The notes under the pieces are model-generated. The model was not told the DNA's origin. It saw nothing but the letters and a program-made list of their open reading frames with translations, and searched no databases. A stretch of DNA of 64,000 nt from Accumulibacter sp. (GTDB taxonomy: Bacteria; Pseudomonadota; Gammaproteobacteria; Burkholderiales; Rhodocyclaceae), in NCBI RefSeq assembly GCF_029255285.1, contig NZ_JAPUVI010000105.1, forward strand, positions 62,001-126,000, given 5' to 3'. Position numbers and translations under genes: made by a program. This document shows, piece after piece, positions 35,055 to 42,765 of this stretch. Each line of letters starts with the position of its first letter. Within the stretch, counting starts at the first letter, position 1.

Positions 35055-36299
35055 TCATCGAGTCGGGATGCAGTTGCAAGTGCACACCGCTCCCCACGGT
35101 ATGGGCTTCGGAGTGCATGGTTCAACCCAGGACTTTCCGTCAGCACCCACGCCAGGAGAATCCGACGAGGTTCCGGTGCCTTGGTGGGGATCGAAGAGGC
35201 ACCCGAGCAGAACAGCGCTCGGCAGGCTCCACAACGCGATCTGTTTGTCGCGACCAGCCGAGGCGAGCATCGTGCCGTCAGCACTGACCGCCACCGCGTA
35301 GATCATCTCCGTGTGGTGGGTCAGTGTGCGTAGCAACTTGCCATCGCGCACGCTCCATACCTTGACGCTCGTATCCCAGCTTCCGGAAACGAGGGTTTTC
35401 CCATCGGGAGAGATCGCCAGCGTGGACACCAACTCCGTGTGGCCGGCCAATGAGTTGAGCAACTTGCCATCGCGCAGGTTCCATAAGCGAATCACCTTGT
35501 CGCCCCCGCCGGACGCCAGCAGCTTCCCATCAGCGCTTAGTGCGAGCGTCCTCTCGGAATCGGCAAAACCTTGGAGTGTTCGCAGCAGGGTGCCGTCGGC
35601 CTGGCGCCAGATCTTGATGGTCCGATCATCGCCGGCAGAAACCAGCACCTTGCCGTCCGGACTGCACGCCAGGGACCAGGTCGTATTCGTCGCTCCCGAC
35701 GACAGAGTCTGCCTGATCGAGTCGTTCGACACGCTCCATAGCTTGATTTCGTCATAGTACCCAGCGGAAGACAGCCGTCCTCCCTCCGGGCTGAAGACGA
35801 GCGCATTGACCGTATCCGCGTGAGCGTTTTCGATGCGCTTGAGTAGTTTTCCCGCTCGCAGATCCCACAGCAGAAGTCCTTTATCGTAACCTGCGGAAGC
35901 CAGCATGTGGCCATCCGGGCCAAAGGCCAGCGCGCGCGCGCCGCCTCGATGTTCGTTCAAGGTGTACAGCAGATCCCCCTTCGGCACCTGCCAGACCTTT
36001 ACCGTCCAGTCGTTGCTGGCGGAGGCAAGCATCTTGCCTCCAGGGTCGAAGGCCAAAGCATGGATGTAATCCTTATGCGCGGGTTTGCCCGAACACGGAG
36101 CGTTCAGCGCCGCTTCGCTTTTCGGCACGATGGCGGTCGCTCCCAGGACACCCAACGTAATCGCGCCAGCACCGAAGAAACCTCGCCGATTCATCCGGGT
36201 GTTCAGCCTGAGCTGGGCAACCGGCACGATGACTGCCTTGTGGCTCGGGCTCGTAGCCGGCAGACGAGCAAGCGCGAACTCGGGTGCCTTCGTCGTCAT
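35055..36299 (-). CDS. WD40-repeat protein with Tat motif and C-terminal CTCNC tail
   Basis: A 414-residue protein. Residues 1-35 form a conserved leader-like segment (L-A-R-L-P at 10-14, V-P-V-A-Q-L at 25-30), followed by a twin-arginine motif at 37-41 (N-R-R-G-F) and a hydrophobic stretch. Residues about 75-365 hold seven WD40 units, each near 42 residues with a G-K-x-L-A-S-x-x-x-D core and a W-D/W-R end, enough for one seven-bladed propeller. The last residues (P-W-G-A-V-C-T-C-N-C-I-P) carry three Cys. The start at 36299 overlaps the stop of the previous gene (ATGA). Likely folded and exported; function unknown. See the radical SAM finding. Confidence 0.75.
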   Translation of the reverse strand: MTTKAPEFALARLPATSPSHKAVIVPVAQLRLNTRMNRRGFFGAGAITLGVLGATAIVPKSEAALNAPCSGKPAHKDYIHALAFDPGGKMLASASNDWTVKVWQVPKGDLLYTLNEHRGGARALAFGPDGHMLASAGYDKGLLLWDLRAGKLLKRIENAHADTVNALVFSPEGGRLSSAGYYDEIKLWSVSNDSIRQTLSSGATNTTWSLACSPDGKVLVSAGDDRTIKIWRQADGTLLRTLQGFADSERTLALSADGKLLASGGGDKVIRLWNLRDGKLLNSLAGHTELVSTLAISPDGKTLVSGSWDTSVKVWSVRDGKLLRTLTHHTEMIYAVAVSADGTMLASAGRDKQIALWSLPSAVLLGCLFDPHQGTGTSSDSPGVGADGKSWVEPCTPKPIPWGAVCTCNCIPTR

Positions 36300-38053
36300 C
36301 GCGCGACCTCCGGTCGACGCTTGGCCACTTGGTAGGCATCGACAGCGTATCGGACAAACCACGGTCGTGCCCGCGCATCGGCGAGCAGCACGTTGACGCG
36401 CCGCCACAACCGGGCTGACAGATTGCCTCGCTGTCCGCACAAGGCGATCATTTGCGCCGCCATGATCGCGACCACCTCATCCTCATCGTCGAGCCGCGCA
36501 ATGCATGGGCCCGATGTGGGCCATTGACCGCGCTCTGGCTGAACACCGCAGGCGATGGAGCGCTTCAATTGACGGATTCTGTTCGCAAGCGTCGAGTCAG
36601 CTTGCCGTATTGCCCAATCGAGATAGCCGAATTGCCCTGCGCCCATGGCCAGCAATAGCTGCTCCGCCATGCCGCGCACGAATGGATCAGGATGAAGCAA
36701 GCGGTGCGCTTGGCAAACCGGAATCAAATTGCAGGTACACACCTTGTTGCATGTGCAGATCGTACCGCCGCTCCGCAGAGGCGTGTTGACGACAGGCGTG
36801 GTCCGTGGCCTGCTGACGGAACCGGGAACACAGTGGCAGGTGCACGTAGCGCCGGCAGGAATCGCGCTGCCACAGGGCAGGGTATAAGTGATCATGCGTC
36901 CCGATTCGTGGCGCAGTTGATACGTCATTCCGCTAACCTGCGCATCGCTGATCGCGAGATCAACCAGACACTGGAGCTTTTCGCCGTCCGGAAGCCGCCA
37001 GAGAAGAATCGCCCCATCCGCGCCGCCGGATGCCAGCAGGCGGCCATCCCGGCTGATTGCCAGCGCGCGCACGATACTTTTGCCATGAGCTGCAATTCTC
37101 TTCACCAGCTTTCCGCCCGGAAGTTGCCAGAGCTGGATCAAGCCGTCACCGCTGCCAGCAACAAGTGTTTTCCCGTCCTCGCTGATCGCCAGCGACCAGA
37201 TCCCCGCCTCGCCCGCCAAGGTCTGCGCCAATTCCCCATCCGGCAAACGCCAAAGTGTGATCGCCTTGCCGCCAGCCGCGAGCAGTTTGCCATCCGGGCT
37301 GATGGCCAACGACTGTTCGTTCGGTCCGCCGCCGTTCGCCGCTGCCGGCAGCTCTTTCCACAACTCACCTTCGGGAAGTCGCCAGAGCAGGGTCTTTTGC
37401 CGGTTGCGCGAGACCAGCAGACTGCCATCCGGCGTGATCAAAAGGATATTCGCTCCGCCTGGATGAGTACGCAGTATCTTGCGCAGACTGCCTTGTGGCA
37501 GATTCCACAGCTTGATCGTCTCATCCGGGCCAGCGGACACCAGAGTGCCGCCGTCCAGACTCATCGCCACTGCCTGCATCGGGATTTTCGTGATTGGCGA
37601 CGAGGATCGTTCCGGCAGGTTCCATAGGTTGATTCCTTTGCTGCTGCCGACGGTCAGGGTGCTGCCGTCGGCGGCGATGGCCAGCGACGTATTCTGGCCC
37701 GCGTCGGCAATCAAAGTATCGAAGTGCGCCCCAAGCGGCAGCGACCACAGCTTCACCGAATCCGAGTTAAAGCCGCCCGCCGAAATGAGCGTACGGCCGT
37801 CAGGAGTGATCGCCAACGCGCCGACGCTCCCGCCGTGCGTGCTGCCTCGGCAACCCGCTTGCACGCTCAACGCGCCGCATCCGCTGGCCAAGATTCCCGC
37901 CAGCGTGCTCGCGGTGAGACCGGCACCCAGGAAACCTCGACGGTTCATGGTGGTATCGAGTTTGAGCTGGGCGATCGGCACAACCATCGCCGCCTGTTGT
38001 GCTTCGCATTCCGGCAATCGCGCCAGGTCAAAGCGCGGCGGTAGGGTTTTCAT
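36296..38053 (-). CDS. WD40-repeat protein with Tat motif, two CTC clusters and helical C-terminal domain
   Basis: A 585-residue relative of the downstream protein. The first 45 residues align to it without gaps: L-A-R-L-P at 10-14, V-P-I-A-Q-L at 25-30, N-R-R-G-F at 37-41. WD40-like units fill about 70-365. Two Cys-rich stretches follow: I-P-A-G-A-T-C-T-C-H-C-V-P (about 398-409) and I-C-T-C-N-K-V-C-T-C-N-L-I-P-V-C (about 431-446). The remaining 140 residues are helical, with no recognised family. GGAG precedes the ATG. Twenty bases downstream of the radical SAM gene, so the maturase probably acts on it. Confidence 0.75.
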   Translation of the reverse strand: MKTLPPRFDLARLPECEAQQAAMVVPIAQLKLDTTMNRRGFLGAGLTASTLAGILASGCGALSVQAGCRGSTHGGSVGALAITPDGRTLISAGGFNSDSVKLWSLPLGAHFDTLIADAGQNTSLAIAADGSTLTVGSSKGINLWNLPERSSSPITKIPMQAVAMSLDGGTLVSAGPDETIKLWNLPQGSLRKILRTHPGGANILLITPDGSLLVSRNRQKTLLWRLPEGELWKELPAAANGGGPNEQSLAISPDGKLLAAGGKAITLWRLPDGELAQTLAGEAGIWSLAISEDGKTLVAGSGDGLIQLWQLPGGKLVKRIAAHGKSIVRALAISRDGRLLASGGADGAILLWRLPDGEKLQCLVDLAISDAQVSGMTYQLRHESGRMITYTLPCGSAIPAGATCTCHCVPGSVSRPRTTPVVNTPLRSGGTICTCNKVCTCNLIPVCQAHRLLHPDPFVRGMAEQLLLAMGAGQFGYLDWAIRQADSTLANRIRQLKRSIACGVQPERGQWPTSGPCIARLDDEDEVVAIMAAQMIALCGQRGNLSARLWRRVNVLLADARARPWFVRYAVDAYQVAKRRPEVAR

Positions 38054-38073
38054 GGGCTATCTCCGTTCCTCGA

Positions 38074-39468
38074 TCAGACAGGTTGATGCCAAAACAAACC
38101 GCCGCTTGCCTCGATGCGATCCAGGATCTCGTCCTTGAGCAGTTCGCGAGTGATCTCACAACGGGCGGAACCGGCAAAAATGCCATTCTGCCGAATCGTC
38201 AATTCCTTGTAGTAACAATCGCCAGCGCAATGCCATTTTGCAAAGCATCCTGCGCAGAAGCTTCTGTTCTGCGCCACTTGCGCACGCAAGTGGCGCAGCG
38301 TTTCCAGGTTGAAGCGATAGCCCTTGTCAGCGCTGGGTTCACCATAGAGGAAGATCTCCGCGCGCGGGTCGTTTTCCGAAAACGCTTCGTAACACGCCGA
38401 AACCTTCCCTCCGGGAGTCAGGCAGAAATTGTCCTGCGAGACTGCACAAAAATGGCCGGTCAGGGTATCGAGCCGTGCGGCAGAAAACGTGATCTTTCGC
38501 CCATGATGTTTCGCCCGGCTGCGGGCGTCACGGAATGCCGCAACGAACTCCGCGGTTTCTGCGGAAGCCGCCCCCTGCCAGCGGCCGAGCAGGTACGCCG
38601 GCTCAATCTGAATGTGCTCGGTGGAAAACTGGCGACAGATGAACTCGATCGAATCCGCCAACTGGGCGATCGTTTCGCGCGTCACGGTCACCCGGACACC
38701 ATAATCAAACCCGGTCTCGTCAAATCGTCGTAGCGTGGCGATGACGCGCTTGCTGCTGCCATCGCCCCGGCGGGTGACCCGGTGCCGGTCATGGACCGTC
38801 GGCAAACCGTCAAACGATACGCTGGCGCCGTGCAAATGCTCGACGATCCAGTCAATCTGCTCATCCTTCAGCATGCCGTTCGTCGCCAATGATCCATGCA
38901 CCGCAATGCCGATTTCACCGGCACGTTGCTCGGCATACGCGAACGAACCGGTCATCGTCCGCCAAAGAACGGTCGGTTCCCCGCCCCCATGGTAGCCGAC
39001 ACCAAAAAACGGTTGTTGTTGGCGATGCGCATGCCGAGCGACGAAGTCGATCCCACGTTTCGCCACATGCATCGGCATCGCGGTGGTCGCTGAATCACCG
39101 GCAGCGGCGTAGCAATACGTGCAGCGCAGATTGCAGGCCGTTGTCAGAAATAGCGTGACCGACGTTGGTTTCGGTTCCCCCGCCAACTCTCCGGACGGCG
39201 TCTCTTCAGGTGCCGAGTCGATCAGTCGCAGACCGCGGAAAAAGTCAAGCAGATCACGGTCTGTGCCAGCCGTGGATTCATGACGCCCCTCTCGAATATC
39301 TGCTAGCGCATTGATCAGCGTCGCGTTCGCCACAAAAGCAACCCGGCGAAGTGGGGCGTAGACGAGATGCAATCCCCGTTCCAAGGGTATGGCAAACAAC
39401 TCGGCCGAAATTGTTGTCGAAGACGCTGTCAACCCCGCTTCGACAGAGGCATCGGCGTTCGTGGTCAT
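38074..39468 (-). CDS. radical SAM/SPASM domain protein, putative maturase of the WD40 proteins
   Basis: A 464-residue radical SAM enzyme. The iron-sulfur motif is C-N-L-R-C-T-Y-C (C112, C116, C119), followed by G-G-G-E-P-T, the SAM-contact loop, and a SPASM-type C-terminal region with many Cys (N-F-C-L-T-P-G-G, S-A-C-Y, F-C-A-G-C, H-C-A-G-D-C, A-R-C-E-I) that can bind two extra clusters. The N-terminal 100 residues (V-Y-A-P-L-R-R-V-A-F-V-A-N) resemble the leader-binding region of peptide maturases. GAGGAA precedes the ATG. First gene of a three-gene operon with two Cys-rich WD40 proteins. SPASM maturases form thioether or C-C links on peptides or proteins, as in QhpD; the reaction here is inferred. 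Confidence 0.85.
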   Translation of the reverse strand: MTTNADASVEAGLTASSTTISAELFAIPLERGLHLVYAPLRRVAFVANATLINALADIREGRHESTAGTDRDLLDFFRGLRLIDSAPEETPSGELAGEPKPTSVTLFLTTACNLRCTYCYAAAGDSATTAMPMHVAKRGIDFVARHAHRQQQPFFGVGYHGGGEPTVLWRTMTGSFAYAEQRAGEIGIAVHGSLATNGMLKDEQIDWIVEHLHGASVSFDGLPTVHDRHRVTRRGDGSSKRVIATLRRFDETGFDYGVRVTVTRETIAQLADSIEFICRQFSTEHIQIEPAYLLGRWQGAASAETAEFVAAFRDARSRAKHHGRKITFSAARLDTLTGHFCAVSQDNFCLTPGGKVSACYEAFSENDPRAEIFLYGEPSADKGYRFNLETLRHLRAQVAQNRSFCAGCFAKWHCAGDCYYKELTIRQNGIFAGSARCEITRELLKDEILDRIEASGGLFWHQPV

Positions 39469-40567
39469 CGCTTTCCTCGTGGAAAGCGGGCGAGAGAAGG
39501 AAAGCAGGCCGACCGAACCGCCGGTTCACGCCGGAACAGGGCGCCCGGACGATAAGGTGAGGCTGTCATCGGGACCCAATGCGCCCGACAGATAGGAAGC
39601 CGAGTCTTTACGCGTGTGGCGTCCATTTCTCAAAGCACTTTCGACACGTCCTGTTGAAGGCGGCATCGAACGTACATGGTGATCATCGTCGACGCCTCGT
39701 CAAGTCCGTTTTCGGCCCCGTGGCACAGGCAGGATTTTGCTTCCCAGCCGCGATGGCTCCTGATCTGCCTGCCAGATCGGAATATTATCTCCCGACAAGG
39801 CAGCCACTGCCACCTGCGCCTTGACTTCTGTGCCGCGTTGCTCATGTTTCGTTCCCATCATTACGTTCCTTTGAATCGGTCGGCCTTGGCTTATCTTACC
39901 CGACTGTCCGAAAAAACGTTCCCGCCGCACTCGTAAAGCCACGCGCGTCGCCAACCAGTTGCTGAAGATCAAGCACCGGCGCTTCGGTTCGATCGACCGC
40001 GAGAGCAACCTTCTGGTGCCGTCCGTCGGCGGCGACGCCGGGAGGGTGGCCCTGATGGCCGACAAGGACGGCACGAAGCGCGAACCCCACCAGAAGATTC
40101 GCCAGTCCACGCGGTTCGCCGTGCTGGTCATGCGCGACGAGGAAAAGGCAGAGGCGAGGAAGTACTTCGCGACGCCGTGTTGTTCTCGATCCATGAAGCG
40201 AAGGGGCTGGAATACGAGAGCATCGTCCTCTACCGCTTCGTTTCCGATCACCGCGCCGAGGTCAGCAAGAACAGGCGGAGGGCTTCCGCCAAACGATTCT
40301 CAAGCGGACGCTGGTTCCCTGGCCGGTCGTCGGCGAGACGAGAGTCGTCGAACTGCTGGTCAAGGTCTTCCGGCGACTGACGACCGGAGGCGATGCCGAA
40401 AGTCATCGACCGCTTTCTCCTCCAGGCGGGCCTGCCCGGGTGGCGAGTGCCGATCGCTGCAGAGCGCACTGTCGCGCGTGCGCAAGCACTCGAGGAAGAG
40501 CGTCTGACCGAAGCTCGCGCGCGACAGGCGCAACGCGAGGTAGCGCCGGCCGCCGCGCGGCGGCCGG
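39469..40567. other. 1.1-kb region upstream of the radical SAM operon with decayed genes
   Basis: No intact gene is supported. The left 380 bases must hold the promoter of the minus-strand operon, but no clear hexamers stand out. A frameshifted helicase remnant fills 39870-40380. A plus-strand open stretch at 40393-40635 (M-P-K-V-I-D-R-F-L-L-Q-A) could be the tail of another lost gene; it runs into the 3' end of hypE and is not called. Confidence 0.5.
39870..40380 (+). pseudogene. decayed UvrD-like helicase C-terminal fragment
   Basis: Pieces in three frames read in order as one protein: A-Y-L-T-R-L-S-E-K, then (after a shift in the A6 run near 39911) V-A-N-Q-L-L-K-I-K-H-R-R-F-G-S-I-D, then (after a shift near 40172) L-F-S-I-H-E-A-K-G-L-E-Y-E-S-I-V-L-Y. 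The H-x-A-K-G-L-E-Y segment is the helicase motif of UvrD/PcrA-type superfamily 1 enzymes. The 5' two thirds are missing. Family call from motif; no intact start or stop. Confidence 0.65.
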
Positions 40568-41617
40568 TCAACAAATGCGCGGCAATTGCTCGCCGGTCAG
40601 CCAGTCGACGATGCGTCGGCCACCGAAGGCGGTAGTCATCTGCACGAAGCTGTGCGCATCCTGATGCACGCTGCCGATCACCGCGGCTTGCCGGCCGAGG
40701 GGATGAGCGCGCATCGCGGCCAGCAAGCGCTCGGCGTCCTCGGGCGCGACGATGGCGACGACCTTGCCTTCGTTGGCCACGTACAGCGGGTCGAGGCCGA
40801 GGAACTCGCAGGCGGCGGCGACTTCGGGCCGCACCGGCAACGCGCTTTCCTGCAACATCATGCCGACTCCCGACTGGCAAGCGATTTCGTTGAGCGTCGT
40901 CGCCACGCCGCCGCGCGTCGGGTCGCGCAGCACGCGGATGGCGGCGCCGCTGGCACGCATGGCGGCGATCAGGCCGTGCAGTGCGGCGGTATCGGAAGCG
41001 ATGGCGGCGGCAAAGCCAAGGTTTTCACGTTGCGCCATGATCGCCATGCCATGTTCGCCGATGCTGCCGGAAACGATGATTCGGTCGGCGGGCCGGGCAC
41101 GGTCGCCCGACCACTCGTCCCCCTCGGTGACGACGCCAACGCCGGTGGTCGTGATATAGACGCCGTCGCCGCTGCCTTTTTCGACCACTTTGGTGTCGCC
41201 GGTGACTACCGGCACCCCCGCCGCGCTAGCCGCGGCGGCCATCGATTCGACGATGCGTGCCAGATCGCTGAGCGGGAAGCCTTCCTCCAGAACGAAGCTG
41301 GCGGCGAGATAGAGTGGTGTGGCACCGACCACGGCGAGGTCGTTGATCGTGCCGTGCACGGCCAGGCAGCCGATGTCGCCGCCGGGGAAAAACAAGGGCG
41401 ACACGACGTGAGCGTCGGTCGACATCACCAGCCGGCCAGGCGGCATCGGCAGCACGGCGGCGTCGTTGCCCTGTCCCAGGTAGGCGTTGCCGAGGCGGCG
41501 GACGAACAGTTCCTCGATCAGTTGCGCCGTCGCCCGGCCACCGCTGCCGTGGGTCATGTCGATACGCCCTTGCCGGAGGTCCAGCGGACGGACGTAAGCC
41601 TTGTGCGTTCGGCTCAC
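40568..41617 (-). CDS. hypE: hydrogenase maturation protein HypE (carbamoyl dehydratase)
   Basis: A 349-residue PurM-like ATPase that dehydrates the thiocarbamoyl group on its C-terminal Cys to thiocyanate, source of the CN ligands of [NiFe] hydrogenase. Seen: H-G-S-G-G-R near the N-terminus, G-N-D-A-A-V-L, G-D-T-K-V-V, D-P-T-R-G-G-V-A-T-T-L-N-E, and the essential C-terminus P-R-I-C ending on the reactive Cys. GTG at 41617 overlaps the hypD stop (GTGA). Last gene of hypABFCDE. Confidence 0.96.
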   Translation of the reverse strand: MSRTHKAYVRPLDLRQGRIDMTHGSGGRATAQLIEELFVRRLGNAYLGQGNDAAVLPMPPGRLVMSTDAHVVSPLFFPGGDIGCLAVHGTINDLAVVGATPLYLAASFVLEEGFPLSDLARIVESMAAAASAAGVPVVTGDTKVVEKGSGDGVYITTTGVGVVTEGDEWSGDRARPADRIIVSGSIGEHGMAIMAQRENLGFAAAIASDTAALHGLIAAMRASGAAIRVLRDPTRGGVATTLNEIACQSGVGMMLQESALPVRPEVAAACEFLGLDPLYVANEGKVVAIVAPEDAERLLAAMRAHPLGRQAAVIGSVHQDAHSFVQMTTAFGGRRIVDWLTGEQLPRIC

Positions 41618-42765
41618 GACACCCTTTCCAGGTCGGCGAACCGACCGAAGGAATAGTGCGCCGCACAAGCTCCCTCCGATGACACCATGCACGAGCCAAC
41701 CGGGTTTTCCGGCGTGCAGACGCTGGCGAAGAGGCGACATTGCGACGGCCGCTTGACTCCGCGCAGAATCGCGCCGCATTCGCACGCTGGGTGGTCGGCG
41801 ACGGCTTCGTAGCGGATGGCGAAACGCCGTTCGGCGTCGAATTCGGCGAATTCGCGGCGGATCCGTAGCGCACTGAAGGGCAAGTCGCCGAGCCCTCGCC
41901 AAGCAAAAGAGCGGCGCAGCTCGAAGACTTCGGCCATCAGATTCTGCGCCTTGCGATTGCCTTCGCGTGTGACGGCGCGCGAGAACTGATTCTCGACCAG
42001 CGCCCGACCGGCATTGACTTGCTCGATCAGCATCAGAATAGCCTGCATCACGTCGAGCGGTTCGAAACCGGCGACAACCACCGGCTTGCGGTACTGCTCG
42101 GCGACAAACTCGTAGGGTTGTGTGCCGATGATCGTCGACACATGTGCCGGACCAACCAGCCCGTCGATTCCGACGCTTCCCCCCTGCCGGACCTCGGGAG
42201 AATCGAGGATGCTGGCGATTGCCGGCGGCGTCAGCACGTGGCAGCAAAGGACCGAAAAGTTGCCGAGACCGAGCGCTTGTGCCTGTTTGATCACGAGTGC
42301 CGTCGGCGGCGTCGTCGTTTCGAAGCCGATGGCCAGCAACACCACTTGCCGCTGCGGGTTCTGCCGTGCGACGAGCAGCGCGTCGGCCGCCGAGTAGATC
42401 ATCCGGATATCGCTGCCGGAAGCCCGGCCCGGTCCGGCTTTCGCCTTGAGCAGCGACAGGCCGCCGGAGGCCGGTACGCGCATCGGATCACCATAAGAGC
42501 ACAGCATGACGCCGGCGTCGCGCACGAGGCGGATGGCCATGTCGATGCGACCGATCGGCAACACACAGACCGGACAACCGGGACCATGAATCATGCGCAC
42601 CTGGTGCGGCAGCAGATCGCTGAGTCCGTAACGCGAGATAGTGTGCGTGTGGCCACCGCAGAACTCCATGAAGCGGTACTCGCGATCCCTCCGGACGACT
42701 CGCCGAATGGCCGCCGCCAGGCCGCTGGCCAGTTCGCCGTCACGGAATTCGTCGATGAATCTCAT
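41614..42765 (-). CDS. hypD: hydrogenase formation protein HypD
   Basis: A 383-residue [4Fe-4S] scaffold that, with HypC, assembles the Fe(CN)2CO unit. Conserved blocks: M-E-F-C-G-G-H-T-H, H-G-P-G-C-P-V-C-V-L-P, G-F-E-T-T-T-P-P-T-A, F-S-V-L-C-C-H, and the cluster ligands in C-E-C-G-A-I-L-R-G and C-T-P-E-N-P-V-G-S-C-M-V-S-S-E-G-A-C. Start overlaps the hypC stop (ATGA). Full length. Confidence 0.97.
   Translation of the reverse strand: MRFIDEFRDGELASGLAAAIRRVVRRDREYRFMEFCGGHTHTISRYGLSDLLPHQVRMIHGPGCPVCVLPIGRIDMAIRLVRDAGVMLCSYGDPMRVPASGGLSLLKAKAGPGRASGSDIRMIYSAADALLVARQNPQRQVVLLAIGFETTTPPTALVIKQAQALGLGNFSVLCCHVLTPPAIASILDSPEVRQGGSVGIDGLVGPAHVSTIIGTQPYEFVAEQYRKPVVVAGFEPLDVMQAILMLIEQVNAGRALVENQFSRAVTREGNRKAQNLMAEVFELRRSFAWRGLGDLPFSALRIRREFAEFDAERRFAIRYEAVADHPACECGAILRGVKRPSQCRLFASVCTPENPVGSCMVSSEGACAAHYSFGRFADLERVS

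Follow-up and report, generated by a model that had tools for sequence, protein, structure and literature searches.

A candidate radical SAM/SPASM system acting on cysteine cores of exported proteins in Accumulibacter and other bacteria

The 64,000-nucleotide stretch of Accumulibacter sp. DNA analysed here (contig NZ_JAPUVI010000105.1; hereafter the window, meaning the whole stretch at its full length) carries a minus-strand operon, read from position 39468 to 35055, in which the gene for a radical S-adenosylmethionine (SAM)/SPASM protein, referred to as the maturase, is followed by those for two WD40 propeller proteins with CTC-type cysteine motifs, referred to as partners A and B. The maturase gene (38074..39468) encodes 464 residues, partner A (36296..38053) 585 and partner B (35055..36299) 414. 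A gap of 20 bases (38054-38073) separates the maturase from partner A, and the genes of the two partners overlap in the sequence ATGA; the tight three-gene operon proposed in an earlier reading of the letters alone (the sequence-only reading) is thus borne out. Pairing of the genes, motifs and partner leader alike were found again across phyla, and the arrangement is therefore more than a chance one. Judged from these comparisons, the maturase most likely represents an enzyme family that cross-links CTCxxV motifs on exported proteins, often WD40 propellers, across many phyla.

The radical SAM cluster motif CxxxCxxC (C112, C116, C119; 39112..39135, this and all other features of the operon lying on the minus strand) and a cysteine-rich SPASM region (38158..38448) were both located in the maturase, as claimed earlier. 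The latter holds seven cysteines (C341, C359, C405, C408, C414, C418 and C437) with C-x2-C-x5-C-x3-C inside, and the cysteines of both motifs are invariant in all 73 rows of an alignment (A2) of the window and 72 other loci. PF04055 was matched with 49 bits against a cut-off of 29.5. The Pfam and NCBIfam results comprise the 25 best matches, and none of those 25 from NCBIfam reaches its cut-off; PapB ranks first (NF047865; 123.3 bits, cut-off 340), followed by QhpD (TIGR03906; 108.6 bits, cut-off 453), with the SCIFF maturase (TIGR03974) at 101.2 bits (cut-off 425). The structure model of the maturase (predicted local distance difference test score, pLDDT, 92) has its best fold match in CteB, the N-terminal domain included, and the alignment with CteB (5wgg) begins with model residue 21 at chain residue 1. 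This domain (residues 20-85; 39214..39411) shows three strands followed by two helices, predicted at residues 25-79, and is on the model and the CteB alignment a predicted leader-binding domain of the RiPP recognition element (RRE) type, RiPPs being ribosomally synthesised and post-translationally modified peptides. The likeness to thioether-forming SPASM maturases implied in the sequence-only reading is supported by the NCBIfam neighbours as well as by the CteB fold match.

Both partners are WD40 proteins, as had been proposed; PF00400 gives 208 bits in partner B and 107 bits in partner A, and the model of the latter has 28 strands within residues 77-363, forming seven blades. Partner A begins with a leader and a twin-arginine (RR) signal (residues 1-45, RR at 38-39; 37919..38053; leader hidden Markov model (HMM) E 7e-19), followed by the propeller, or carrier (residues 71-365; 36959..37843; Pfam and structure model), and by two cysteine cores. 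The first, of a type here called T1, is TYTLPCGSAIPAGATCTCHCVPG (residues 389-411; 36821..36889; core profile A4, E 9.8e-24 in its own genome), and the second, TICTCNKVCTCNLIPVC (residues 431-447; 36713..36763), is of the CTCxxV type, a motif that also occurs in the partners from Streptomyces and Actinomadura. In the model T1 lies on a small hairpin beside the propeller, and the second core falls within a disordered segment. The C-terminus is formed by some 137 residues (448-584; 36302..36712) that make up a helical domain common to the actinobacterial partners; it gave no sequence match in the PDB with a 6-row profile and no Pfam match over the cut-off, and a known fold for it was set aside after these searches. 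In partner B a leader of the same kind with its RR signal (residues 1-45, RR at 38-39; 36165..36299; leader HMM E 4e-16) is followed by a propeller and, at the very C-terminus, by the core EPCTPKPIPWGAVCTCNCIPTR (35058..35123; core profile E 1.2e-5). The CTC-type motifs reported earlier were recovered in both proteins, GAVCTCNCIPTR ending partner B and TLPCGSAIPAGATCTCHCVPG and ICTCNKVCTCNLIPVC lying within partner A, where ICTCNKVCTCNLIPVC precedes the helical domain; the earlier list of parts had neither the leader preceding the RR pair nor the helical domain nor the second type of motif.

Relatives of the maturase were sought in one genome per species over 84,980 species, and the best 80 of the 161 stretches obtained were used; with L034 dropped (on the same contig as L010, its replacement), together with L052, L058, L089 and L090 (broken or cut), the count was 76 loci. 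At 62 of the 76 loci the maturase has on its own strand, within 1 kb, an open reading frame (ORF) that encodes a CxC core, downstream in 41 and upstream in 21. The same test around other long ORFs of these loci succeeded in 14 of 228 instances, the majority of which lie next to the same partner gene, and the background of CxC cores beyond 1 kb was 27 among 10,307 ORFs. In nine of the 14 loci lacking an adjacent core the core lies more than 1 kb away (L015, L018, L042, L071), is a variant (L020, L031), is masked (L024), or was missed by the overlap rule (L057), or the contig ends (L079). A fusion of maturase and substrate, considered for L057, was dismissed: two frames are present there, and the product, of 127 residues, is separate.

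The same association was seen at the level of whole genomes. Among 150 relatives of the window's genome, one other has a full-length relative of the maturase and belongs to the same family, none of the 20 same-genus genomes listed has one, and the T1 core was detected in the two genomes with the maturase (G000 and G078) and marginally in G048 (E 8e-4). The maturase is present in 11 of 245 genomes around an acidobacterium and the core in eight, all within these 11, with no core in the 234 genomes devoid of the maturase. Of 199 genomes around a Streptomyces, the maturase and the type-2 domain were each found in one and the same genome, that at the centre of the set. Among 41 genomes chosen for the maturase, the T1 core was found in 28, two of which have eight copies each. 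The maturase gene and the proteins with CTC motifs are thus supported as functionally tied. The distribution of the maturase is patchy; its relatives occur in Acidobacteriota, Verrucomicrobiota, Bacteroidota, Nitrospirota, Planctomycetota, Cyanobacteriota, Pseudomonadota, Actinomycetota, Chloroflexota and Thermodesulfobacteriota. Viral copies were also considered and set aside, only one remote relative being present in viral contigs.

The sequence-only reading had predicted repeated co-occurrence of the maturase with CTC-tailed WD40 proteins, and an enzyme dedicated to WD40 propellers would account for the carriers in the window and for the 31 of 62 adjacent partners that have at least two WD40 repeats. 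The other 31 have no detectable WD40 and keep the CTC core; therefore it is the core, rather than the propeller, that tracks the enzyme. Homologues without propellers, which the sequence-only reading had itself named as a refutation, thus exist; the core part of the prediction holds and its propeller part fails. WD40 was also gained or lost at least six times on the maturase tree, where its presence and absence alternate; a WD40-specific enzyme was accordingly set aside, being refuted as a general rule and highly improbable. The better frame is a maturase whose leader and cysteine core are mobile, the propeller being one carrier among several. Among partners without WD40, those of Streptomyces and Actinomadura consist of a signal, a stretch rich in Ser, Pro, Thr and Gly, and the core; that of L062 is immunoglobulin (Ig)-like (N_BRCA1_IG, 67.6 bits), some are weakly SH3-like below the Pfam cut-off, and others, including L041, L045, L064, L067, L076 and L085, are short products of 106 to 190 residues. 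In L016, L031 and L055, and by eye in L108, a Peptidase_S74 chaperone domain directly follows a CTCIPV or CVCIPV core. The S74 domain cleaves itself in phage tail spikes, and should it do so here the core would become a free C-terminus. The carrier is thus shown to be exchangeable, with WD40 in the window and half of the relatives and other or disordered domains elsewhere. Over 34 partners, which were picked for carrying a core and so favour the core figure, pairwise identity averages 0.73 for T1, 0.44 for the leader and 0.33 for the propeller, and the end modules are therefore held tighter than the carrier.

Core type follows the maturase tree, core and enzyme changing together. The window's enzyme groups (support 98) with seven enzymes of Streptomyces, Actinomadura and Streptosporangiaceae, the partners of which share with partner A the C-terminal CTCNKVCTC..IPVCQAHRLL helical domain. 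The tree labels were set by hand and predate the CxC partners found in L059, L064, L067, L071, L072, L076, L084, L085 and L087. Many partners of Chloroflexota and Bryobacterales (L062-L082, L015, L018, L042) end in HYW[YH]PN after the cores. In the Nitrospira relatives L084, L086 and L087 a small product upstream of the maturase has CSC[EQ]xKP repeats replacing CTCxxV, and in Thiomargarita and a relative (L053, 7088-7453; L054, 9367-9711) two tiny frames follow the maturase; leader-like segments occur in one, the other ends in VLGCSPN, and there is no CxC core. In the more distant group an additional radical SAM protein and a protein like HutW/HemN recur, at 13 loci each (for example L018, 14547-16415, and L063, 13258-14616), the HutW/HemN match scoring 212 bits against an unreached cut-off of 400. 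One genome (G573, contig C111; L116, L119) carries three maturase relatives inside about 7 kb.

The T1 consensus is PCGSPIPxGAxCTCNCVPG, in which C26, C36, C38 and C40 are invariant in all 16 chosen examples; the other form of core consists of CTCxxV repeats, where cysteine gaps of two (273) and four (84) define the six-residue unit. It is very probable that the maturase modifies the cysteine cores, and a thioether linkage is moderately likely if it does, preferred because the nearest relatives make thioethers. The conserved Thr and Val of the cores leave room for other radical chemistry (PMC9062424). The same enzyme and substrate might then be joined by a reaction at the beta-branched residues (Val, Ile or Thr before, Thr or Ser inside and Val after CxC), such as cyclopropane or C-C bond formation, epimerisation or oxidation, with the cysteines serving otherwise; since the cysteines are the best conserved core residues and the nearest neighbours in sequence and fold form thioethers, this is judged rather unlikely. 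The dense CxC spacing is also what metallothionein-like or bufferin-like metal binders outside the cytoplasm would show, with the radical SAM protein tuning or assisting metal capture, and exported cysteine-rich proteins modified by multinuclear non-heme iron-dependent oxidative enzymes (MNIO) bind copper, according to the portion of PMC12452194 that was available. Against such a function, no recurrent cluster of metal-homeostasis genes surrounds the loci and the ligands would be consumed by disulfides or thioethers, so that metal capture appears improbable.

The leader, PxFxLxRVxxDGxxxxPEIVPVxxxPWxxxMxRRGFLGAG in consensus, was detected in an ORF (E <=1e-3) in the window's group at 40 of 47 loci, in the next at seven of 16 and in the most distant at none of nine, with a model built from part of these same loci. 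A conserved leader and a separate core in an adjacent product are thus present (40/47 and 62/76 loci, respectively). P6, R38 and R39 are invariant in all 34 aligned partners, the RR pair standing before a hydrophobic stretch as in signals for twin-arginine translocation (Tat), and tatC is present in the window's genome. Among the homologues tested, the NCBIfam Tat model TIGR01409 is passed by L014 and L080 only, and no partner tested matches PF10518 over its cut-off. Of the Tat export proposed in the sequence-only reading, the export-type RR signal therefore stands; the Tat models give no match for the window's own leaders, and export of the window's partners by Tat is judged probable.

These data are reasonably accounted for by a RiPP-like protein-modification system comprising a leader-guided maturase, cross-linking of cysteine cores, Tat export and an exchangeable carrier, a reading that we consider fairly probable as a whole. 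The N-terminal leader of each partner, some 37 residues preceding the twin arginines, would bind the RRE-like domain of the maturase, which would then act in the cytoplasm on the distant C-terminal cores (T1 and CTCxxV repeats), most likely forming thioether links from cysteine sulfur to carbon as do CteB, PapB, the SCIFF maturase and QhpD. The folded product would leave through Tat, the leader being lost together with the signal peptide, and a cross-linked cysteine cap would be displayed outside the cytoplasm on its carrier. More tentatively, the extended n-region of the Tat signal may double as the maturase leader and so couple modification to export, and a nested cross-link of a new type in the [CTCxxV] repeats may form a rigid surface cap moved among propellers, lipoprotein stalks, Ig-like domains and autoprocessing S74 domains, in a widespread class of proteins.

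Several observations weigh against this account. No core partner was found in the stretch examined at five of the 76 loci (L040, L053, L054, L056, L083), and 13 of the 41 maturase genomes lack a T1 core at E 0.001, most of them having another CxC form in the locus. The leader model fails at seven of 47 loci in the window's group and at every one of the nine in the most distant group, and the window's two leaders match neither Tat model (TIGR01409, PF10518). In an Accumulibacter bin (L035, 6188-7107) the partner gene is broken over several frames and LR replaces RR. The CxC repeats would also fit metal binding without modification.

The operon is adjoined by a HypD gene (41614-42765) and a HypE-like (AIR synthase) gene (40568-42247), beyond which HypF-like and HypC-like reading frames were recognised by eye, and a rival reading would make the operon part of hydrogenase maturation and its genes neighbours by chance. 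No hyp cluster is found among the gene groups common to at least three examined loci, and the co-occurrence of enzyme and core speaks against this reading; a functional tie to the hyp genes, already disfavoured, was set aside as scarcely credible. Between the operon and the hyp genes (39700-40550) short frames resemble, by eye, remnants of a helicase gene, one open piece of which gave no Pfam match. GC content is lower in 38001-40000 (0.588) than in the neighbouring 40001-42000 (0.668). At other loci an NB-ARC/TPR protein (L012, 10524-13883) and a TIR protein (L038, 6863-7729) adjoin the system, which may point to a part in conflict or immunity. A known anti-phage system was set aside, PADLOC giving only generic radical SAM, WD40, TPR and TIR matches.

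The SCIFF peptide is a small peptide, whereas the substrates here would be large proteins with an RR export-type signal and a CTC core; the SCIFF maturase CteB/ScfB (PDB 5wgg, 5why) is the closest structural relative of the maturase. The ranthipeptide maturase PapB shares with the present system a cysteine-rich repeated core in addition to being the best NCBIfam match, and joins Cys to Asp or Glu in Cys-X3-Asp/Glu motifs (PMC9413430, as far as its available text goes). That motif is not conserved in the present cores, where P, C, G, S, K, T or A predominate at position +4 from the first CxC cysteine (273 occurrences). QhpD, a SPASM enzyme of quinohemoprotein amine dehydrogenase, likewise acts on a protein and not on a small peptide, and is the nearest precedent for a protein substrate; its QhpC is a single dedicated subunit (PMC8172795, available part), and no dehydrogenase subunits were found beside the present maturase gene. 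For a signal region in the place of the leader, the nearest precedent is the bufferins, in which the accessible sections of PMC12452194 describe a signal region replacing the classical leader, a cysteine core and occasional fusion to larger proteins; bufferins use MNIO and Sec, unlike the present system with its radical SAM enzyme, RR (Tat-like) signal and other motifs, which thus falls outside the class. FtsH ternary conflict systems, also found in scattered and multicellular bacteria, combine a radical SAM enzyme with a peptide effector, the enzyme being proposed to modify the product of a neighbouring gene, and the available part of PMC7159879 names neither a CTC core nor a partner with WD40 nor a Tat signal; no vWA-MoxR-FtsH set was identified beside the loci, a systematic search not having been made. 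The network study PMC9062424 reports 22 new pathways and names, in its accessible portion, no WD40 or CTC case. A literature search, the coverage of which was without most subscription papers and bioRxiv, gave no description of this pairing of enzyme and core, and the enzyme family seems to be undescribed so far.

If the proposed system is real, radical SAM cross-linking would reach beyond small peptides and single enzyme subunits and would constitute a recurring way of finishing large exported proteins, a single leader and core type being moved between unrelated carriers and leader recognition merging with Tat targeting. It would also provide a natural toolkit for cross-links at the ends of folded proteins. 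The cultured hosts Streptomyces and Actinomadura permit direct testing, and the system offers fresh ground in the search for radical protein chemistry.
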